Source of the DNA: Limnohabitans sp. MMS-10A-178
GTDB lineage: Bacteria > Pseudomonadota > Gammaproteobacteria > Burkholderiales > Burkholderiaceae_C
Reading direction: 5' to 3'
Assembly: GCF_003063375.1 (NCBI RefSeq)
Contig: NZ_NERY01000003.1
Location: 186,001 to 250,000 of the forward strand
Length of the DNA: 64,000 nt
In this document: positions 6,975-40,237 of the stretch, piece after piece
Layout of the letters: the number at the start of each line of letters is the position of its first letter
Numbering within the stretch: position 1 is the first letter of the stretch
Translations under genes and position numbers: made by a program
The notes under the pieces: model-generated
The model's database searches: none
Told to the model about the DNA's origin: nothing
Seen by the model: the letters and a program-made list of their open reading frames with translations, nothing else

Positions 6975-8594
6975 ATGCCCCAAATTGTGACGTCTGCACC
7001 CGCCATCATTCTGTGTACTTTGAATGCGAAGTACATTCACGCTTCATTGGGATTGCGCTACCTCATGGCCAACATGGCGCGACACGGGAGCCCCCAATTG
7101 GCCCAGCGCACCGTCGTCACTGAATTTACATTGGCTCGAAAAACGCCAGACATGGTGCACGAACTGCTCGAGCAACTCGGCCCAAAGCAGCCAGGCCAAG
7201 TGCAAATCATTGGCTTTGGTGTGTACATTTGGAATGTGACTCAAACTACTGAATTGGTGCGAGCACTCAAGAGCCAAAGACCTGAGCTGAAAATTGTTTT
7301 GGGAGGGCCTGAAGTCAGTCATGAAACCGAGTCGCAAGAAATTGTGCAATTGTCAGACTTCGTCATTTCTGGTTGGGGCGACGTCAGTTTTCCAAAGCTG
7401 TGTCTTGCTTTGATCGAAGGCCCCATGCCTTTGATGAAAATGATTCAGGGCGAGCAACCCCCTTTGAGCGACATTGAGCTGCCTTACCGCGAATTTTCAG
7501 ACGCAGATTTGGCCCACAGAGTGCTGTATGTAGAAGCCTCAAGAGGATGTCCCTTTAAATGCGAGTTTTGTTTGAGCGCCTTGGACAAAACCGCTTGGGC
7601 TTTTGACTTGCATCCCTTTTTGAAAGAACTGGATATCTTGTACCAACGCGGTGCTCGAAATTTCAAGTTTGTCGATCGCACCTTCAATTTGAAAATTGAA
7701 GCATCTGCACAAATTCTGCAATTTTTTCTGGATCGTCTTCAGCAGGCTTCCTCGCAAGGATTATTGGTTCACTTTGAAGTGGTGCCCGACCATTTACCCG
7801 ATCGTCTCAAGGCCTTGATCTTGCAATTTCCCCCAGGGGTTTTGCAGTTTGAAGTGGGTATTCAGTCTTTCAACGAAGAAGTTCAGCAGCGTATTTCACG
7901 CCGTCAAGACAATGCCAAAACAGAGGCCAATTTACGCTGGCTTCTGACGGAGTCAAACGCTCATTTGCACACGGATTTGATTTTTGGATTGCCTGGCGAA
8001 ACACTGCAAAGCTTTGCCGAAGGCTTTGATCGCCTGTTGAGTATTGGGCCGCAAGAAATTCAATTGGGTATCTTGAAGCGCCTCAGAGGAACGCCCATTG
8101 CAAGACACACACAAGCCTTTGGCATGGTCTATGACAAACTGCCGCCCTATGTCATTCAAGAAAACAATGACATTGACACGGAGACGCTAAAACGATTTAC
8201 CAGATTGGCCAAGTATTGGGATTTGGTGGCCAATTCAGGTCGATTCAAACTCACACTGCCTTTTTTGTTGCAGCCGTATGCGCCCCATCATTCGCCATTT
8301 TGGGCCTTCATGGCATTCGCCGATGATTTGTGGCAACAAACTCAAAAAACCTATGGCCTCACACCCGAAGCTTTGGTCGATGTCGTGTTCACATATCTAA
8401 CGACCAAGCGATTGTTTGACGTAAGCTTGATTCGTGAATCTTTGTTGAAAGATTACTTGGCCAGCGGCGCAAGAGGACGCCCAAGGTGCCTGGCCCATGA
8501 AAATTTGCCACTGGGTGGTGACAGGTCAGTCGACAAGCAGAATTTGCGAGAGCGCCAAGACAGACACATGGTTGCCGATGCAGGCAGCCACTGA
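6975..8594 (+). CDS. Radical SAM protein with N-terminal B12-binding-type domain (DUF4080-like)
   Basis: 539 residues. The N-terminal 150 residues have a cobalamin-binding-like Rossmann layout (IILCTLNAKYIHASLGLRY, then IVLGGPEVSHE). The radical SAM core follows, with the 4Fe-4S motif CPFKCEFC at about residues 192-199 inside YVEASRGCPFKCEFCLSAL. A helical C-terminal region resembles DUF4080. The reaction is unknown; such proteins are often annotated as B12-binding radical SAM. The last ~40 residues (after DYLASGARGRPRC) are low in recognisable family sequence and end 4 nt from the convergent soxZ stop, so the tail may be variable. Confidence 0.85.
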   Translation: MPQIVTSAPAIILCTLNAKYIHASLGLRYLMANMARHGSPQLAQRTVVTEFTLARKTPDMVHELLEQLGPKQPGQVQIIGFGVYIWNVTQTTELVRALKSQRPELKIVLGGPEVSHETESQEIVQLSDFVISGWGDVSFPKLCLALIEGPMPLMKMIQGEQPPLSDIELPYREFSDADLAHRVLYVEASRGCPFKCEFCLSALDKTAWAFDLHPFLKELDILYQRGARNFKFVDRTFNLKIEASAQILQFFLDRLQQASSQGLLVHFEVVPDHLPDRLKALILQFPPGVLQFEVGIQSFNEEVQQRISRRQDNAKTEANLRWLLTESNAHLHTDLIFGLPGETLQSFAEGFDRLLSIGPQEIQLGILKRLRGTPIARHTQAFGMVYDKLPPYVIQENNDIDTETLKRFTRLAKYWDLVANSGRFKLTLPFLLQPYAPHHSPFWAFMAFADDLWQQTQKTYGLTPEALVDVVFTYLTTKRLFDVSLIRESLLKDYLASGARGRPRCLAHENLPLGGDRSVDKQNLRERQDRHMVADAGSH

Positions 8595-8598
8595 ATTT

Positions 8599-8910
8599 CT
8601 ATGTCACGCTGGCTTCGTCGGTGCGAGTCTGGCCTTTGTTGTCTTTCCAAGAAAGGGACAGCTTATCGCCCGCTTTGCCGCCTTTGATGACAAATTGCAA
8701 ATAAGGATTTTTGGACACAGAAGGGCCAAAATCGATGTCCAAGATGACTTTGCCATTGAGTGAAATAGTCACTTCTTGAATGAACCAACTGGGAACGGTT
8801 TTTCCCGAGCCATCTTTGCGGTGGCCAGATTCCATTTCGTGACTCATCAGAACTCGAACAGTGGTTTTGCCTGCCTGAGCTTGTGCGCGAATGCGTGTAG
8901 GTTCTGCCAT
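8599..8910 (-). CDS. soxZ: Thiosulfate oxidation carrier complex protein SoxZ
   Basis: 103 residues from the ATG at 8910, chosen because GGAAG lies just upstream and MAEPTRIRAQ is the usual SoxZ start. SoxZ pairs with SoxY to form the periplasmic carrier that holds sulfur intermediates. The motif VLMSHEMESGHRKDGSGKTVPSWFIQE and the C-terminal LSWKDNKGQTRTDEA are standard. It has no signal peptide, as expected for a partner exported together with the Tat-targeted SoxY. It begins 4 nt after the soxY stop and is the last gene of the operon. Confidence 0.93.
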   Translation of the reverse strand: MAEPTRIRAQAQAGKTTVRVLMSHEMESGHRKDGSGKTVPSWFIQEVTISLNGKVILDIDFGPSVSKNPYLQFVIKGGKAGDKLSLSWKDNKGQTRTDEASVT

Positions 8911-21046: not shown

Positions 21047-22027
21047 TTACTCAATGGTGATGTTGGCGTCCTTGATCAACTTGGTCCATTTGGTTTGTTC
21101 CTGTTGAATGAATTTGTTGAATTCAACTGGTGTCAAATTGCCTGGCTCTGCACCTTTTTCATTCATAGCCTTGCGAACCTCCGGCATGCTCATGACTTTC
21201 TGAATGTCGTCGTGTAATTTTTTGACAATGTCAGGCGGGGTATTGGCATGCGCCAATAAACCAAACCACCCAATAGCGTCATAGCCACTCAATCCCGAGG
21301 TGTTGACTGGTGGAACGTTTGGCAAAGCTTCGATAGGTTTGAGGCCTGTCACCCCAATGGCTTTGACTCTTCCATTTTGAATTTGTGACATCGCAGTTTG
21401 AGTTGGCGCAAACATCAATTGAATGTGATTGGCCAATAGGTCGTTCAATGCGGGGCCCGTTCCTTTGTAAGGCACGTGAAGCATGTCAATGCCGGCTCGT
21501 GCTTTAAAGAGTTCGCCAGACAGATGCGAGGCCGCTCCAATGCCCGACGATCCGAAGGTTAGTTTTTTGGGATTTGCTTTGGCATAGGCAATGAGGTCAG
21601 CTGCATTTTTAACTGGCAGACTTGGATGGACCACCAATACATAGGCGTCGGCCGATACCAAAGAAATGCCCACAAATTTCGAAACATTTTTGTCATTGAT
21701 GACAGCCGTGGTTGCCATCATCAGTGTGTAACCATCTGGATTGGCTTTCGATACATAGTCTGCGCCAATTTGACCGCTTGCACCAGCCCTGTATTCCACA
21801 ATGACACTTTGGCCCCAAAGTGAGTTAAGTCTTGGTACTAAGATGCGCGCCAAATTGTCAGCACCACCCCCTGGTGTGAATGGCACAACGATGGTGACTG
21901 GCTTACTTGGAAATGTTTGCGCGTTGGCCAATTGGCAAAGCGACATAGTGCCGCCGAGAACAAAGATACCGATTGTTTTAAGCAAATTGCGAGTGCTTGA
22001 TGAGCCAATGTGATTTGACAATTTCAT
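21047..22027 (-). CDS. Bug/TctC-family receptor (orphan, copy 2)
   Basis: 326 residues with a long leader ending near LANAQ. Motifs FPSKPVTIVVPFTPGGGADNLARIL, EYRAGASGQIGADYV, GAASHLSGELFKARAGIDMLHVPYKG mark the Bug fold. As the fourth gene of the catabolic operon it is expected to bind the substrate or an intermediate of this pathway for import. No TctA or TctB genes are near. Spacing to the FAH gene (36 nt) and to the dienelactone hydrolase (1 nt between stop and ATG) shows one transcription unit. Confidence 0.9.
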   Translation of the reverse strand: MKLSNHIGSSSTRNLLKTIGIFVLGGTMSLCQLANAQTFPSKPVTIVVPFTPGGGADNLARILVPRLNSLWGQSVIVEYRAGASGQIGADYVSKANPDGYTLMMATTAVINDKNVSKFVGISLVSADAYVLVVHPSLPVKNAADLIAYAKANPKKLTFGSSGIGAASHLSGELFKARAGIDMLHVPYKGTGPALNDLLANHIQLMFAPTQTAMSQIQNGRVKAIGVTGLKPIEALPNVPPVNTSGLSGYDAIGWFGLLAHANTPPDIVKKLHDDIQKVMSMPEVRKAMNEKGAEPGNLTPVEFNKFIQQEQTKWTKLIKDANITIE

Positions 22028-22063: not shown

Positions 22064-22987
22064 TTAGACAATGGTTGTGCTCAAAGTGGCAATGCCTTCG
22101 ATGGCACATTCAACAACATCGCCAGGCTTTAAAAAGAGCGCAGCTGCATTGGGTTTGCCAACGGCAACACCGCCGGGAGCCCCTGTAGAAAACATATCGC
22201 CTGCCTCAATGGGAATGTATTGTGAGAAGTGTTCCACAATGTCGGGCAGTTTCCAAATTTGGTCACTGGTGTTCACTCGCATGCGCTCTTCACCATTCAC
22301 AGAGCATGTCATCCACAAATTGTAGGGATCGGGTATTTCGTCCATTGTGATAATTTCTGGACCAAGAGGGCCAAAGCCTGGGATATTTTTGGCAGTCCAA
22401 AATCTTGAGCCTGAGGCAACTTCGCGCTGCTGAAGATCTCTGCAAGTGAGGTCATTCAAAATGGTGACGCCGGCAATGTAGTTGAATGCATCCGCTTTTT
22501 TGACTCCCAAAGCACGTTTGCCCATCACAAACACAAGCTCTGGCTCGTAGTCGAGGCGCACAATGCCATCAGGCTTTTTAACATGCGCCTCATGGCCCAC
22601 CAAGCAAGAATTCAATTTGATGAATCCTGTGGGTTCTTGGGGAATTTCTTTGATCAAATTGGTTTGTTGCAGCTCTTCTAAGTGCTTCCGATAGTTTTTT
22701 CCAACACACAAAAATTTGTCTGCATCAACAATAGGTGGCAAATAGGTAATAGACGCTTTGTCAAGCCATGCAGATTGAAATGTCGTCGCATCGCTCAATG
22801 CTTTTGAATTTAAATGTCGAACGCGTGCCATGCCTTCAGTGCCAGCGGCAAGCAAGGACTTCATGTTGGAGGGCATGCCGATTTCGCCAGCAATTTTGGC
22901 TGCTTCTTTCAAGTTGAGAATTTTTTCGTTGGTACGGATACCAATCAAGGGCTCTGAATGATTCAGAGTGAATGTGAGAAGACGCAT
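22064..22987 (-). CDS. Fumarylacetoacetate hydrolase (FAH) family protein
   Basis: 307 residues. The C-terminal FAH domain (about 90-300) shows the divalent-metal acids in RLDYEPELVFVMGKRA and the ILNDLTCRDLQ and GDMFSTGAPGGVAVGK signature segments. Members cleave C-C bonds of acylpyruvates or diketones or act as hydratases and decarboxylases. Operon neighbours (a diketone-hydrolase-like crotonase upstream, dienelactone hydrolase downstream) suggest a step after ring opening. The exact substrate cannot be deduced. Confidence 0.88.
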   Translation of the reverse strand: MRLLTFTLNHSEPLIGIRTNEKILNLKEAAKIAGEIGMPSNMKSLLAAGTEGMARVRHLNSKALSDATTFQSAWLDKASITYLPPIVDADKFLCVGKNYRKHLEELQQTNLIKEIPQEPTGFIKLNSCLVGHEAHVKKPDGIVRLDYEPELVFVMGKRALGVKKADAFNYIAGVTILNDLTCRDLQQREVASGSRFWTAKNIPGFGPLGPEIITMDEIPDPYNLWMTCSVNGEERMRVNTSDQIWKLPDIVEHFSQYIPIEAGDMFSTGAPGGVAVGKPNAAALFLKPGDVVECAIEGIATLSTTIV

Positions 22988-23046: not shown

Positions 23047-23826
23047 TTATTTGTGACTGCTTGAGTTCGAATTGTGCGTGGCAGCCAATCCTTCAAGCGC
23101 AAGACCGTAGCCATGCATGTCAAGAATTTTCTTTTTCAATTCTTGAGTAGCCAAAACGCGTGAATAGCGCCGTAGGAGAGGGCTACGCAGTTTGATATAA
23201 CGCGCCAGCTCCCATGCCCTGGGCAACAATTGATCCAAAGGCAACACTTCATTGACCAAGCCTACATCTTTGGCTTCTTGCGCATTGATAGTTTGACCCG
23301 TCAAAAGAAAATATCGGCCTCGGTTGGTGCCCATCAAGTGGGGAAACACAACATGCACGCCGTCACCGGGTACCAGGCCACCCCAAAAATGGGCTGAGTC
23401 TTGAAAGGTGGCTGTGTCTGCCGCCAAAACGATGTCAGACAGCAATGGAATTTCGGCATGGCGAAGCGTGGGGCCATTGATAGCAGCAATGATGGGAACT
23501 TCAATGTTCAAAAGATTCAGCAGCAGGTGCTTGCCTTCGAAATAAATTTTGTCCCACTCCATGGCGGTCACTGGATGGCTCACGTGATTGTGGCCATTGG
23601 GGCCCAAAGCTGGCCCACTGAATGCCGCGCCTGTGCCGGTCAGGATGATGACTTCATTGTCATAATCTTGTCCGATCTCATGGAAGGCGCGAGTGAGTTC
23701 GCCGTGCGGCAATAAACTCCAGTGAAGGGGCCCGCCATTGGTATGCAACTTGACTTCAAGGATACCGTCGGTTCGGCTCATTTGAATAGTCTGATATTTG
23801 TTGGCGTAGTTTTCTAATTTCAGCAT
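23047..23826 (-). CDS. Crotonase-superfamily C-C hydrolase, 6-oxocamphor-hydrolase-like
   Basis: 259 residues, crotonase fold. Instead of hydratase glutamates it has H123 (LRHAEIP), H146 (SAHFWGG) and D155 (VPGDGVH) spaced 23 and 9 residues apart, exactly as His122, His145 and Asp154 of 6-oxocamphor hydrolase; E245 would align with Glu244 of that enzyme. The segment VPGDGVHVVFPHLMGTNRGRYFLLTGQ is also of that branch. The family performs retro-Claisen cleavage of cyclic beta-diketones. It is the second gene of the operon, between a Bug receptor and the FAH hydrolase. Automatic annotation would say enoyl-CoA hydratase. Confidence 0.8.
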   Translation of the reverse strand: MLKLENYANKYQTIQMSRTDGILEVKLHTNGGPLHWSLLPHGELTRAFHEIGQDYDNEVIILTGTGAAFSGPALGPNGHNHVSHPVTAMEWDKIYFEGKHLLLNLLNIEVPIIAAINGPTLRHAEIPLLSDIVLAADTATFQDSAHFWGGLVPGDGVHVVFPHLMGTNRGRYFLLTGQTINAQEAKDVGLVNEVLPLDQLLPRAWELARYIKLRSPLLRRYSRVLATQELKKKILDMHGYGLALEGLAATHNSNSSSHK

Positions 23827-23867: not shown

Positions 23868-24827
23868 TCAGTCCATCTTTGCGCCAGATTTCACGATCAC
23901 CTGTTCCCATTTGTCAATTTCAGACTTAACAAATGATCTGAACTCTTCAGGGCTGTTGCCAACAGGCTCTGCACCCTGTGCTTCCATTTTTTCTTTGATG
24001 TCTGCAGATTGAAGCGCTTTGATTGAGGCGTTGTAAAGCGCTGCCACGATGTGTGGGGGTGTTTTGGCGGGGGCAAATAAGCCGTTCCAGCTTGACACTT
24101 CAAAATCGGACAAGCCTGCCTCAGCCATGGTAGGTACATTGGGCATTGTGGCCATGCGTTTTTTGCTGGCGACAGCCAACACGTTCAGTTTGCCGCTTTT
24201 CAAATGCGGAATGGCAGACAAAGCCGTTTGAAAACTCATTTGAACTTGCCCCCCCAACAGGTCGGAAATGGCCGGTGCGGCACCCTTGTAGGGCACATGG
24301 ATCAAATCAATGTTGGCGCGCATTTTTAAAAGCTCGCCCGCCAGATGGGGTGATCCACCATTGCCGCTTGAAGAAAAAGCAAACTTGCCAGGATTCTGTT
24401 TGGCGACCGCAATGAATTCTCTGAGATTCTTGGCGGGCACGGAGGGGTGCAATGTGAGCACCGAAGGTGCCGTCATAAATTGTGTGATGTGCACAAAGTC
24501 ACGCATGGTGTCGTAGCCCAGATTTTTGAAGGCCGTCATGTTGGTGGCGTTGGCGATGGTGCCCAAAAGCAGGGTGTAACCATCGGGTGCGCTTTTCGCT
24601 ACAAATTCTGATGCAATGTTGCTGCTGGCTCCCGCACGATTTTCAACCACCACCGGTTGGCCCAAAGTCTCTTGCAGCTTGATGGCAATGCTTCGCGCCA
24701 CGATGTCAGTAGCGCCACCTGGTGCATAACCCACCAACAAGCGGATGGGTTTCACAGGATAGGCCTGATCTTGCGCATAACTTGTGAGGGATATTAGGGA
24801 AAGAAAGACAGCCAAAATTCGTTTCAT
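23868..24827 (-). CDS. Bug/TctC-family receptor (orphan, copy 3)
   Basis: 319 residues from MKRILAVFLSLISLTSYAQ, a compact signal peptide; an upstream start at 24899 would add a tail overlapping the divergent promoter. Mature motifs VKPIRLLVGYAPGGATDIVARS, ENRAGASSNIASEFVAK and GSPHLAGELLKMRANIDLIHVPYKGA identify the Bug fold. It heads the five-gene catabolic operon and is divergent from the TauD-like gene, a layout that suggests it captures the pathway's starting compound. No permease subunits are nearby. Confidence 0.9.
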   Translation of the reverse strand: MKRILAVFLSLISLTSYAQDQAYPVKPIRLLVGYAPGGATDIVARSIAIKLQETLGQPVVVENRAGASSNIASEFVAKSAPDGYTLLLGTIANATNMTAFKNLGYDTMRDFVHITQFMTAPSVLTLHPSVPAKNLREFIAVAKQNPGKFAFSSSGNGGSPHLAGELLKMRANIDLIHVPYKGAAPAISDLLGGQVQMSFQTALSAIPHLKSGKLNVLAVASKKRMATMPNVPTMAEAGLSDFEVSSWNGLFAPAKTPPHIVAALYNASIKALQSADIKEKMEAQGAEPVGNSPEEFRSFVKSEIDKWEQVIVKSGAKMD

Positions 24828-25032
24828 AAGAAGCCTGTGTTTGTCGATACAAAAGAAGCCTGAAGTGTAGGGACAGATGGTGCTCTCAAGCAAGGTCAAA
24901 TCATTGGTGTTGTCCCTATGTGAGAAATTGGCACGTCTTTATTCAGTAAGATGGCTTTTGAAGCGTCGAAACTCAGCAGGTATTTGGCTTCTGTGGTTTC
25001 TGCCTCAGGCTATTGGAGTAAAGCAAAGTGTT

Positions 25033-26136
25033 ATGAGTTCCTTCATTCAAACCAATCTAGAGAAACCGCGTGCATGGTTTCCAAAAGAGCTTCGTCAAGA
25101 TTTCTCATGGATTCACCATCTTAGCCGTGAGGCCGTGATTGAAATTGAGCAAGCGCTGCAGCACGCCAAGGCCACTCAAAAGTCGTGGCTTCAAATGACA
25201 GCTAACGATTTCCCACTTCAACGCCATGCCAAGCAAGCCATTGATCAAGCATTTGCCGTCACACAAACGGCTTATGGCATGTGTCTTTTAAAAGGCTTTC
25301 CCGTAGAGCGTTGGTCAGTCGAGGATGCGCGCTTGGCGCACTGGGGCATTGGATTGAATGTAGGCGTAGCCAGAACTCAAAATCGGGCCAGTCAGGTGAT
25401 GAACGATGTGCGTGACGAAGGCGGAAGCTACAAAGTAAAAAACGGGCGAGGGTACAACACCAATGCTGGTTTGGATTTTCATGTTGACTCCTGCGACGTT
25501 GTGGCCTTGCTTTGTTTGCAAACCGCCAAAACAGGTGGTACCAGCAAAGTAACCAGCTCCATCGCAATTGTGGACGAAATCAAACGCCTGCGGCCTGACT
25601 TGATTCCTGTGATGCAGCAGCCTTTTTATTACAGCTATCAGGGCACCAACGATGCTACACAGCCCCCTTTTTACAAATGCCCCATTTTGGGCAACGAGCC
25701 TGATTTCTTTGCATTGCGTGCAAACCGAAAAAATGTCACGGCGGCCCAAGTCGATTTCCCTGAAGTGCCACGCTTAACTCCAAAGCAAATTGAGTTGTTA
25801 GATCTTTTGGACGAACTGCTGCCCGATGACAAATTTTGCTATTCGATGCAACTCGATCGCGGCGATATGCAGTTGCTCAACAACTACGTGGTCATTCATT
25901 CAAGGACCAACTTTGAAGACCACGAAGCGCCAGAGCTAAAGCGCCATTTGTTGCGGCTTTGGTTGAGCATTCCACAAGGGCAGCGCTTGCCGTCCTTGTG
26001 GAAAGAGTATTTTGGCGAGATTGAAGCTGGCTCAGTGCGAGGCGGCGTGAGGGGTAACCAAATTACCGAAGAGTTTTTGGCTTATGAGCGTCGCCAAGCT
26101 GCCAATTTGGGAATGAAGCTTTTGCAGAAGGTTTGA
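25033..26136 (+). CDS. TauD/TfdA-family Fe(II)/2-oxoglutarate-type dioxygenase
   Basis: 367 residues from the ATG at 25033; the in-frame region upstream (from 24877) has no family resemblance and overlaps the divergent promoter. The HxD iron ligands are H150 and D152 (LDFHVDSCD), with the distal histidine H289 in VVIHSRTNF and the 2-oxoglutarate-type arginine further on in HLLRLWLS. Such enzymes hydroxylate or dealkylate substrates, decarboxylating 2-oxoglutarate. Divergent from the Bug/diketone-hydrolase operon, so a first oxygenation step in the same pathway is plausible. A 12-bp stem hairpin overlaps its stop codon. Confidence 0.87.
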   Translation: MSSFIQTNLEKPRAWFPKELRQDFSWIHHLSREAVIEIEQALQHAKATQKSWLQMTANDFPLQRHAKQAIDQAFAVTQTAYGMCLLKGFPVERWSVEDARLAHWGIGLNVGVARTQNRASQVMNDVRDEGGSYKVKNGRGYNTNAGLDFHVDSCDVVALLCLQTAKTGGTSKVTSSIAIVDEIKRLRPDLIPVMQQPFYYSYQGTNDATQPPFYKCPILGNEPDFFALRANRKNVTAAQVDFPEVPRLTPKQIELLDLLDELLPDDKFCYSMQLDRGDMQLLNNYVVIHSRTNFEDHEAPELKRHLLRLWLSIPQGQRLPSLWKEYFGEIEAGSVRGGVRGNQITEEFLAYERRQAANLGMKLLQKV

Positions 26137-26637: not shown

Positions 26638-26739
26638 AGTAGTCTCCAGTTGAGTGTGTATTGGGGGATCAGTGTGTCTTAGAATAACTTTTAAGAGCCG
26701 GTTTATGCGGTGCTTACTTTAACAGCTTGATTTTATTGA

Positions 26740-36322: not shown

Positions 36323-38713
36323 TTAAATTTTGCCGAGTGCTGCCAATACACGCTGCGGTGTGAAAGGCTGCACACTCACGTTGGCATTGAGGGGCGCCAG
36401 AGCATCATTGATTGCATTCATCACTGCGCCGGGCGCTCCCGCAGTGCCTGCTTCGCCCACACCTTTAGCGCCTAGCTCTGATGTTTTGGTTGGCGTTTGC
36501 ACATGGGCAATGATCATGTCAGGCATCTCGCCCGCCATTGGCACCAAATAGTCTGCCATGGAGCCATTCAGCAATTGGCCATCGTCGCTGTAAATGCATT
36601 CTTCAAACATGGCGCCGCCAATGCCTTGCACAATGCCACCGCGAATTTGCTCATCTACCAGCATGGGGTTGATGACGGTACCGCAGTCTTCCACGCACCA
36701 GTGCTTGAGCAGTTTGACAAAACCTGTTTCAGGGTCGACTTCGACGTAGGAAGCTTGGATGCCGTTGGTGAATGTAAAACCATATTCACGCGGCGTGTAG
36801 TGCCTTGTCACAGTAAGCTCTGATTGAAAATTCATGGGCAAAGTATCAGGCCTGAAGTAGGCAACTCGGCCCACCTCGCTCAATGGCATCTGCACTTGTC
36901 CGCTGAGCTTGTCTAACACCATGCCGTTGACCAAATCCAAGGTGGCAGATTCCACTTTCAAAATGACCGCGGCCACATCCAAAATGTGTTTGCGAAGTTC
37001 TTTGCCCGCCTGCAAAACCGCTTCACCGCCAATGCCTGCACCCCTTGATGCCCAAGTACCACCGCCATAAGGTGTGACGGCGGTGTCTCCTGTAATGACA
37101 CGAACGTTTTCCACCTTCACGCCCACTGCGGAGGCTGCAATTTGAGTGAACACGGCCTCTGTGCCTTGACCTTGCTCAGTGACACTGACCAAAACATAGA
37201 TCATGCCAGCAGGGTCGAGTCGAAGGGTGGCGCCATCCTGTGCTGAGATTCGCGCTCCCCCCACACCATAAAAAGCGGGCGAGGGATTGGTCACTTCAAT
37301 CATGGCAGCCAGTCCAATGCCGCGGTAGATGCCTTGAGCACGCAATGACTCTTGTTCTGCGCGCAATCCTTTGTAGTCCATCAAGGTCATTAATTTCTCT
37401 AGACATTGGTGGTGTGAAAGCTTTTCAAATTTGACACCAGAAGGCGCCGTGTAAGGATAGGCGTCGTCGGCAATCAAATTTCTCCGCCTAAATTCTGCGG
37501 GGTCCATGCCAATTTTTCTGGCCGCTTCATCGACAATGCCTTCCGTAACAGCCATGGCAATGGGGTGACCCACTGCTCGGTACTGACATGTGACATTTTT
37601 GTTGGTGAAAACCACGTCCAACTTGGCTTTGTATTGCTTGTGTTTGTAGGGGCCGCCAGTGAGGTTGACCACTTGGTTGCCTTCAATGCCGCTGGTGCGC
37701 GGGTAGACAGAGTAGGGGCCAATGCCTGTTAAGTCAGACATGTCAAATGCAATGATCTCGCCTTGCTGTGTGCAGGCCAGCTTGATTTTTACTTTGTGCT
37801 CGCGCGCGTGAATGTCAGTTAAAAAAGACTCAATTCGGTCGGCAGAAAATTTGACGGGTCTCTTGAGCATGACCGCAATGGCAGCTGTAGCCATTTCGTC
37901 GGCATAGACATGGACCTTGATGCCAAACGAGCCACCCACATCTTTGCAAATGACGCGCACGTTGGATTCAGGGATGTTCAGATGACGCGAGAAAATATCT
38001 TGCATCATGTTGGGCGCTTGCGTGCCTTGATAGACGGTGAGCAAATTCTCTGCGGGGTTGTAGTCTGCCAAGATGCCGCGCGGTTCATTGGTGACTCCAG
38101 TGTGCCGGCTGAATTCATAGACTTTTTCAACCACCACATCGGCCTTGGAAAAGGCGTCATCAAAGCCCTCGGTCACAAGCTCTCGGTTGAAGCATTTGTT
38201 GTCACCCAAATCGGGATGAATGACCACATCGCCAGCAAGCGAGGCTTCCATGTCAGTGACGGCGGGTAGCAGCTCCCAATCAACCAGCACATGGTCGAGA
38301 GCATCTTCTGCTTGCCGTCTGGTTTGGGCCACAATGGCCGCAACGGCCTCACCTTGCCAGCACGCTCTTTCAGGCGCAATGGCATATTGAGGGGCAGATC
38401 GTATGCCTTTGAGATGGCCCAAAACACCGACCCAAGGCGTGCAATATTCAGCGACCTCGCGGCCATCAAAGACAGCCACAACGCCTTTTTGTTTGCGTGC
38501 CTGCGAAAGATCCAAATGCTTGATGCGAGCGTGTGCATGAGGGCTTCTCAAATACACCACATGCACCAATCGGGGCAGTCGCAAATCGTCTAAGTAGGTA
38601 CCGCGTCCTTCGAGTAATTTTTTGGCACCTGCGCGCGGCACACTTTGTCCAACGTAGTTTTCTTGGGTGTCAACACCCTCAGCTTGAAGAGGCAGTTCGT
38701 GAGGGGCATTCAT
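36323..38713 (-). CDS. Xanthine-dehydrogenase-family molybdopterin subunit (CoxL-like)
   Basis: 796 residues, the catalytic large subunit of a molybdenum hydroxylase. The N-terminal Ald_Xan_dh_C domain is followed by Mo-cofactor-binding domains: VCKD-like IICKDVGGSFGIKVHVYADE, the active-site loop QYRAVGHPIAM (~390) and the catalytic glutamate in GVGEAGTAGAPG (~760). The loop is neither the form I CO-dehydrogenase nor the common GAGRP loop, so the substrate is probably not CO. Overlaps the iron-sulfur subunit gene as ATGA; it is the third gene of the minus operon. Confidence 0.9.
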   Translation of the reverse strand: MNAPHELPLQAEGVDTQENYVGQSVPRAGAKKLLEGRGTYLDDLRLPRLVHVVYLRSPHAHARIKHLDLSQARKQKGVVAVFDGREVAEYCTPWVGVLGHLKGIRSAPQYAIAPERACWQGEAVAAIVAQTRRQAEDALDHVLVDWELLPAVTDMEASLAGDVVIHPDLGDNKCFNRELVTEGFDDAFSKADVVVEKVYEFSRHTGVTNEPRGILADYNPAENLLTVYQGTQAPNMMQDIFSRHLNIPESNVRVICKDVGGSFGIKVHVYADEMATAAIAVMLKRPVKFSADRIESFLTDIHAREHKVKIKLACTQQGEIIAFDMSDLTGIGPYSVYPRTSGIEGNQVVNLTGGPYKHKQYKAKLDVVFTNKNVTCQYRAVGHPIAMAVTEGIVDEAARKIGMDPAEFRRRNLIADDAYPYTAPSGVKFEKLSHHQCLEKLMTLMDYKGLRAEQESLRAQGIYRGIGLAAMIEVTNPSPAFYGVGGARISAQDGATLRLDPAGMIYVLVSVTEQGQGTEAVFTQIAASAVGVKVENVRVITGDTAVTPYGGGTWASRGAGIGGEAVLQAGKELRKHILDVAAVILKVESATLDLVNGMVLDKLSGQVQMPLSEVGRVAYFRPDTLPMNFQSELTVTRHYTPREYGFTFTNGIQASYVEVDPETGFVKLLKHWCVEDCGTVINPMLVDEQIRGGIVQGIGGAMFEECIYSDDGQLLNGSMADYLVPMAGEMPDMIIAHVQTPTKTSELGAKGVGEAGTAGAPGAVMNAINDALAPLNANVSVQPFTPQRVLAALGKI

Positions 38714-39207
38714 ACCTTGACTCCTGATTCAGAAGAAGATTTGACCAAGACAGATTCGATGGCATTGACGATGGCCTGATAGCCTGTGCATCTGCAGTAG
38801 TTGCCAGAAATTAATTCGCGAATTTCATCGCGTGTAGCCTGCTTGTGATGCTTGGTAATTTCCAGCGCAGTGAGCAGCATGCCTGATGAGCAGAAACCGC
38901 ACTGAAATGCATTGTGTTCTAAAAATGCAGCTTGTAACTGTTGCAATTCCCGGCTTTCAGTTAAGCCTTCAATGGTTTGTACATTTTTACCATCTGCTTG
39001 AATGGCCAAAGTGAGGCAACCGCGAACAACTTGTCCGTCAACCATGACTTGGCAAGCGCCGCAAACGCCATGCTCACAACCTAAGTGTGAGCCTGTGAGG
39101 CCCATTTCCTCACGCAAGTAATCAACCAGGTGCATTCGCACTGGCACGTGGGCATCAACATTTTCTCCGTTGACCGTGAATTGTGCATGCATGCAATTTT
39201 CAGACAT
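38710..39207 (-). CDS. Two-[2Fe-2S] subunit of the molybdenum hydroxylase (CoxS-like)
   Basis: 165 residues. The N-terminal plant-ferredoxin cluster ligands are in CEHGVCGACQV with the later CLTLAIQ, and the C-terminal cluster in QCGFCSSGM and NYCRCTGYQ. It passes electrons from the Mo site to the FAD subunit. It overlaps the FAD-subunit gene by 8 nt upstream and the Mo-subunit gene by 4 nt (ATGA) downstream. Confidence 0.92.
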   Translation of the reverse strand: MSENCMHAQFTVNGENVDAHVPVRMHLVDYLREEMGLTGSHLGCEHGVCGACQVMVDGQVVRGCLTLAIQADGKNVQTIEGLTESRELQQLQAAFLEHNAFQCGFCSSGMLLTALEITKHHKQATRDEIRELISGNYCRCTGYQAIVNAIESVLVKSSSESGVKV

Positions 39208-40063
39208 GTGTTGCTCCCGCTTGTATCAAAGCTCTTGACAATAGAACCCGCGATAAATGTTTTTTGGTGGCCGCGTTGGCCGATAAATCGCCAGCCGGCT
39301 GAAGGTCTTCATCTAGCGCAGCTTGGGCTTGTGAAATGGTTTGCGAGTTGATGGATTGCCCAGTCAGGGCCTTCATGGCACGTGGCGCCAAAATGGGTTT
39401 GTCGTCCATGGCCATGAAGGCCAAGGCGACATCCTGAATGGTTTGTCCCTCTAAGCTCAAAGCCAAGGCCATGCCAGCCATGGCGTAATCGCCTTTGCGG
39501 CGGGCCAGTTCTGAAAACACAAAACGTTGGTTTGGCTTGGCAATGGGAAACTCCACCCCGATCAGTATTTCATCTGCTTGTACGGCTGTTCGGTAAAGGC
39601 TGATGAAAAATTCGCTGGCTTTGACACGCCGCTCGCCTTTAGCACTTTGAATGATGAGCGTGGCATTCAAGGCCAGTGCCACTGCGGGGTACTCAGCTGC
39701 CGGATCGCCCAAAGCCAAACTTCCACCAATGGTGCCTTTGTTGCGAATGGCCAAATGAGCCACATATGGCACTGCTTGCGCAAGCAGAGGAATGTGCTCT
39801 TTTACGATGTGAGAAGAGTCAATTTCATGGTGGGTGGTTAGTGCGCCAATGCGAATCACATTGCCATTTTGTTGTATGCCCTTGAGTGAATCAAGACCAC
39901 TGATGTCGATCAATATGCTTGGGTTGGCCATGCGCAAGTTGAGCATGGCCAAAAGGCTTTGTCCGCCTGCCAACAATTGCGCGGCGTCACCATGTGTTTT
40001 AAGCGCTGAAAAAACATCAGCCATGGTTTGGGCTTTGAGGTACGAAAACTCTGGCGACTTCAT
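39200..40063 (-). CDS. FAD-binding subunit of the molybdenum hydroxylase (CoxM-like)
   Basis: 287 residues from the ATG at 40063 (MKSPEFSYLKAQT); the frame continues 16 codons upstream without family similarity. FAD-site motifs LLAGGQSLLAMLNLRMANP and AIRNKGTIGGSLALGDPAAEYPAVALAL are typical, followed by a CO_deh_flav_C-type end. It is the first gene of the five-gene minus operon (FAD, Fe-S, Mo subunits, lactonase, HsaA-like oxygenase). Confidence 0.92.
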   Translation of the reverse strand: MKSPEFSYLKAQTMADVFSALKTHGDAAQLLAGGQSLLAMLNLRMANPSILIDISGLDSLKGIQQNGNVIRIGALTTHHEIDSSHIVKEHIPLLAQAVPYVAHLAIRNKGTIGGSLALGDPAAEYPAVALALNATLIIQSAKGERRVKASEFFISLYRTAVQADEILIGVEFPIAKPNQRFVFSELARRKGDYAMAGMALALSLEGQTIQDVALAFMAMDDKPILAPRAMKALTGQSINSQTISQAQAALDEDLQPAGDLSANAATKKHLSRVLLSRALIQAGATHV

Positions 40064-40237
40064 TGAAAAATCCTCTTCAACATAATTGATTGAAGCATTG
40101 CTATAAAACAATGACTTTTCAATACTATGAGAGAGGCATTGAAATCACATCCGCTAATACCCTAATTGATACAAAGATTCACAAACCAAAAGGGGTGATG
40201 GCTGAATAGGAACCTTGCATTCGCAACGACCTGTCAG

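Follow-up and report, generated by a model that had tools for sequence, protein, structure and literature searches.

The protein encoded on the minus strand of a 64,000-nucleotide stretch from Limnohabitans sp. MMS-10A-178 (the window, meaning this whole stretch) is probably a coenzyme A (CoA)-independent retro-Claisen beta-diketone hydrolase. It belongs to the branch of the crotonase superfamily represented by 6-oxocamphor hydrolase (OCH) and the Anabaena enzyme ABDH (alr4455), and its chemistry is predicted here from its kinship, its catalytic residues and the operon in which its gene lies.

23047..23826, minus strand: OCH-like, predicted beta-diketone hydrolase gene, 259 aa, ATG start, assigned by sequence alignments

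The frame is open from 23826 to 23047 on the minus strand, plus-strand frame 1 being interrupted by stops. The gene is under purifying selection, with 67 silent and 9 replacement codon changes relative to its counterpart in the congeneric locus L009, and 123 silent and 19 replacement changes relative to that in L012. Pfam assigns an ECH_1 match, exactly the generic enoyl-CoA hydratase family label that the first-pass annotation had expected the gene to carry.

Searches of known structures place the protein beside OCH. In a phmmer search of PDB chains, which returned 119 distinct sequences at 1e-5 and in which the best 60 of 119 were compared, OCH ranked first (1o8u, 3.8e-76; 1szo, 9.4e-75; 259 and 255 bits) and ABDH second (two distinct sequences, about 4e-67, 230 bits), OCH and ABDH being the only branch members with a solved structure among the PDB matches listed. 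The next chain was an annotated hydratase at 3.8e-20 and 76 bits, 183 bits below OCH, and no closer match to an annotated hydratase was found among these chains. A profile search against the OCH branch, as the first-pass annotation had suggested, gave the same answer: with the window gene and its four orthologues excluded from training, the profile scored 363 bits for the window protein versus 127 for the best of nine own-genome crotonases (nine of the genome's 12 further crotonase places were examined). The first 12 rows of a Foldseek search with the predicted model are likewise OCH or ABDH chains; the model is weak at the active-site positions, and the fold search backs the kinship weakly.

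The active site tells a similar story. In the phmmer alignment with 1o8u, H123, H146, D155 and E245 fall on OCH H122, H145, D154 and E244, with the spacings of 23 and 9 residues that had been noted from the sequence, a correspondence far beyond chance, while W36 and H41 align with OCH W40 and H45. The five positions H45, H122, H145, D154 and E244, which we take to be the OCH active-site set, are therefore all identical in the window protein. Over aligned positions the two proteins are about 52% identical, and W40, H45, H122, E124, D130, D142, H145, D154, H157 and E244 of OCH (1o8u, 1szo) all have identical counterparts, whereas OCH W160 is replaced by F161. ABDH (PDB 2j5g, 2j5s) is about 46% identical and has F at the W36 position. 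Its catalytic residues, given as H43, H144, D153 and E243 in PMC3584854, correspond to H41, H146, D155 and E245 (numbering by hand via the phmmer alignment). All 34 OCH-branch rows compared have H146, D155 and E245; H123 and D143 occur in 33 of them, E125 in 32, H41 in 29 and W36 in 22. One plasmid-borne relative (L041, Novosphingobium pentaromativorans pLA3, 7989-8759) keeps the dyad, with Leu and Pro replacing H123 and E125.

Comparison with ordinary crotonases shows which of these residues are informative. H123, H146 and D155 occur together in none of the nine own-genome crotonases examined. Glu is present at the 125 position in four of the nine, the same four that have Glu in the H146 (Glu164) column, and none of these two-glutamate proteins has Asp at the D155 position. 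Glu at the 245 position, however, is found in 8 of the 9, so E245, which the first-pass annotation had listed alongside the other residues, is not a marker of the branch. The same annotation had described the hydratase glutamates as absent, which is half right. Enoyl-CoA hydratases of the rat 1ey3 type share the fold of the window protein, and the Glu144 register is also occupied by Glu (E125); their Glu164, by contrast, is replaced by H146, leaving the second catalytic glutamate unmatched, and the loop of the GGG segment reads R-H-A. In the structural alignment published in PMC3584854, H146 of the Mycobacterium avium protein 3q1t stands at the Glu164 place and Glu144 lies six residues ahead of Asp150; because E125 precedes D131 by the same six residues, one of the two glutamates declared absent is in fact there. 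The marks that distinguish the gene are H123 plus the H146/D155 dyad, and the profile score.

These comparisons bear on two other readings of the protein. It might be a CoA-dependent crotonase hydratase or hydrolase that has lost one glutamate, for which E125 in the Glu144 register and the ECH_1 match speak; this is very unlikely given the replacement of Glu164 by H146, the R-H-A loop, the 183-bit preference for OCH over any hydratase-annotated chain, and the failure to reach any curated NCBIfam cut-off (best 111 of 354 bits, among the best 25 of 64 models). The first-pass proposal taken to the letter, in which both glutamates are lost, E245 is a catalytic marker and a cyclic diketone is the substrate, is hardly credible: H123, H146, D155 and the operon are all confirmed, but E125 aligns with Glu144 and nearly all the other crotonases examined share the Glu at 245. 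The re-annotation itself is nevertheless correct and useful, its supporting argument being partly flawed.

The His-Asp dyad is also found in crotonases outside the OCH branch. Counterparts of H146, D155, D143 and H41 are present in M. avium 3q1t and in a second protein encoded by the window's own genome (L002, sharing about 28% identity with the window protein), where Ala takes the H123 position and the Glu144 position holds no Glu. 3q1t has been proposed to be a beta-diketone hydrolase and carries Val126 at the Glu144 position, according to PMC3584854. The paralogue, which lacks H123, is encoded directly after an FAH-family gene (L002 423-2298; G000:C1). Among 14 loci related to it, an FAH match lies within the 1.5 kb flanks in three: directly beside the paralogue's gene in the own genome, and at distances of 1.1 and 1.3 kb in the other two. 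Usable residue rows came from four of the 14 (L076, L081, L084 and L088).

Returning to the favoured assignment, a retro-Claisen hydrolase, a mechanism can be sketched if the residues act as they presumably do in OCH and ABDH. The H146-D155 dyad would activate a water molecule, while H123 and W36, together with the loop around A73, would bind one carbonyl of a 1,3-dicarbonyl substrate and polarise it. The water would then attack this carbonyl, and the C-C bond joining it to the central carbon would break in retro-Claisen fashion, yielding a carboxylate and a ketone. That the substrate may be cyclic is suggested by the two characterised relatives, at the identities given above.

Phylogenetic analysis indicates that the window protein is part of a distinct clade within the branch. 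In a tree of 37 rows it falls in a clade of 19 with support of 96/96. In a reduced tree, which gains L075 and drops nine rows (L047, three crotonases of the window's genome and five rows that are long or uncertain), the clade comprises 17 rows at 99/97. OCH and ABDH both lie outside it; its neighbours in this tree, rooted at the midpoint for drawing only, are two rows linked to cytochrome P450 and GMC genes, followed by OCH with a Rhodococcus row, with ABDH further out. The clade is marked by Gly-Pro at positions 71-72, found in 19/19 clade rows and in 0/15 other OCH-branch rows. The window protein shows the clade-typical S70-G71-P72 and a loop lengthened to about residue 86; its oxyanion loop reads S-G-P-A where OCH has C-N-E-I, and the following loop is shorter in OCH. 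We know of no characterised member of this clade, and no paper treating either the clade or the operon was found, by title or opening abstract, among the open-licence papers listed.

Genes for Bug/TctC periplasmic binding proteins (Bug) often accompany the clade, with one no more than 3 kb away at 13 of 20 clade loci and at none of 13 loci outside it. Since related genomes were counted separately, one positive locus (L050) rests on two partial matches on the opposite strand (160 and 69 aa), and Bug genes are frequent in the order as a whole, the association represents a tendency and not a test.

The clade-specific oxyanion loop speaks for an alternative in which the same dyad-activated water attacks a different scissile group, that of a beta-keto ester, lactone, amide or cyclic imide. 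Further points in its favour come from clade members on plasmids of Paraburkholderia, Pseudonocardia, Caballeronia and Arthrobacter (L032-L036), whose genes adjoin molybdenum (Mo)-hydroxylase gene sets of the xanthine dehydrogenase type (L033-L035), a 'cyclase' family hydrolase (L032, L034), an SMP-30 lactonase (L033, L035), or cytosine-deaminase-like and RraA genes (L036). Such contexts hint at the catabolism of oxidised heterocycles and would suit oxygenated heterocyclic substrates. However, the window protein shares 52-57% identity with these relatives, and its neighbouring Mo hydroxylase large subunit only about 31% with the large subunits of L033 and L034, so the pathways probably differ from that of the window; moreover, both characterised branch members are C-C hydrolases. 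Cleavage of another group is therefore considered unlikely. For the same reason, the low identity of the large subunits, the window's own xanthine-dehydrogenase cluster (36323-40111) was rejected as part of the same pathway as the OCH-like gene.

The Bug/FAH/DLH operon described in the first-pass annotation is real, forming a run of genes on the minus strand in the order Bug3, OCH-like, FAH, Bug2, DLH, next to which a dioxygenase gene is divergently transcribed:

23868..24899, minus strand: Bug3, Bug/TctC periplasmic binding protein, 41 bp upstream of the OCH-like gene
22064..22987, minus strand: FAH-family hydrolase, 307 aa, PF01557 at 9e-61, 59 bp downstream of the OCH-like gene
21047..22027, minus strand: Bug2, Bug/TctC periplasmic binding protein, after FAH in the window and in L009-L012
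20305..21054, minus strand: DLH, dienelactone-hydrolase family protein, mechanical TTG start
24877..26136, plus strand: TauD/TfdA-family 2-oxoglutarate dioxygenase, divergent from the operon

The OCH-like gene is second in the operon. FAH and Bug2 are separated by 36 bp, and Bug2 and DLH overlap by 8 bp. The TTG start of Bug3 is likely too early, as a start resembling that of a signal peptide lies 24 codons in (by eye). Of the accessory genes, DLH is found in the window and L009, whereas L010 and L012 lack it, so it belongs to the operon here but is no constant member; L009, L010 and L012 also have TauD close to the operon. In L011, where the contig stops 0.4 kb beyond Bug2, neither was seen. 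Because the surrounding genes vary among the five genomes and DLH occurs in two, the core of the operon is OCH-FAH-Bug2. Beside HbpS, L009 (3440-5173) and L010 (1829-3562) also carry a 577-aa ORF that looks dehydratase-like (dihydroxy-acid/sugar-acid) by eye only; the matching gap in the window spans 26638-26739 and could not accommodate such an ORF.

The FAH family is a second type of C-C-cleaving enzyme, different from that of the OCH-like neighbour. The FAH protein contains the motifs DYEPE and NDLTCRD, which align with 8sky and presumably contribute to its metal site. Its nearest matches are 8sky, an unnamed FAH-family protein, and HpcE-type decarboxylases, with 2,4-diketo-3-deoxyrhamnonate hydrolase and acylpyruvases further down. 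Several of these relatives use 1,3-dicarbonyl acids as substrates, in keeping with, though no proof of, a two-step module in which the FAH enzyme would carry out the cleavage following that by the OCH-like enzyme.

Adjacent coupling of the two enzymes was seen within the genus. OCH-FAH-Bug2 occurs in this order in 5 of 90 congeneric genomes (the window and L009-L012), and in our data the operon arrangement is seen in these five only; an FAH match at 87-100% is present in exactly the same five, adjacent to the OCH-like gene each time. In one further genome (L070 9310-11235; G1030), an FAH gene (64-65%) is followed by a Bug2-like gene (49%) with no OCH-like match at 1e-40, so the FAH-Bug pair also exists without OCH. 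FAH pairing as a rule of the OCH branch was rejected, as 6 of 33 OCH-bearing loci have an FAH gene no more than 3 kb away: five are the window and its four orthologues, and the sixth is Sphingobium TKS (L040, at 2,990 bp). This search used the FAH of the window and one from L040 as queries at 1e-10 and may have overlooked more remote FAH types.

Relatives of the OCH-like protein are sparsely distributed. At 1e-40, and with the window's own genome included each time, they were found in 5/90 genomes of the genus, 2/299 of the family, 9/300 of the order and 6/398 of the phylum. On plasmids, 36 records contained relatives at 1e-30, all below 60% identity, while no FAH relative was found on plasmids at 1e-60, and a pattern scan of viral contigs found no relatives.

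Other relatives reside in different neighbourhoods. In L039 and L054, cytochrome P450 and GMC oxidoreductase genes precede the OCH-like gene, and an EstA-like gene comes after it; such an arrangement would fit a route in which hydroxylation and oxidation to a diketone lead up to ring opening. In L037, L052, L053, L055 and L057 the OCH-like gene lies near an SDR gene (5/5) and a GST gene (labelled in all but L052), with a reductase of the old-yellow-enzyme type also nearby in L037, L052 and L055. These loci span several families of the phylum, and the counterparts in L042 are weaker or more distant. Of the three rows that group with ABDH in the reduced tree, L053 and L057 are among these loci and adjoin GST and SDR genes instead of Bug/FAH. 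The window itself encodes further catabolic functions between 31369 and 40111, including a flavin reductase, a luciferase-like monooxygenase, an amidohydrolase, an HsaA-like flavin monooxygenase, an SMP-30 lactonase and a Mo hydroxylase gene set (some labels by eye).

As a conjecture about the pathway, the Bug proteins might capture a carboxylated cyclic or linear 1,3-dicarbonyl, which the OCH-like enzyme might open and the FAH-family enzyme cut again, with DLH and TauD possibly providing accessory steps. More generally, and tentatively, the Gly-Pro clade may represent a biochemically distinct group of CoA-independent C-C hydrolases whose oxyanion loop has been remodelled, serving Bug-imported carboxylated cyclic 1,3-dicarbonyls; in Limnohabitans it would form, with FAH, a two-step retro-Claisen module that dismantles the ring without CoA. 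The partner enzymes of the operon narrow the possible substrate. The gene illustrates that an enoyl-CoA hydratase annotation can conceal a C-C hydrolase, and it provides a simple sequence test: H123 together with the H146/D155 dyad for the branch, and the Gly-Pro loop for the clade.
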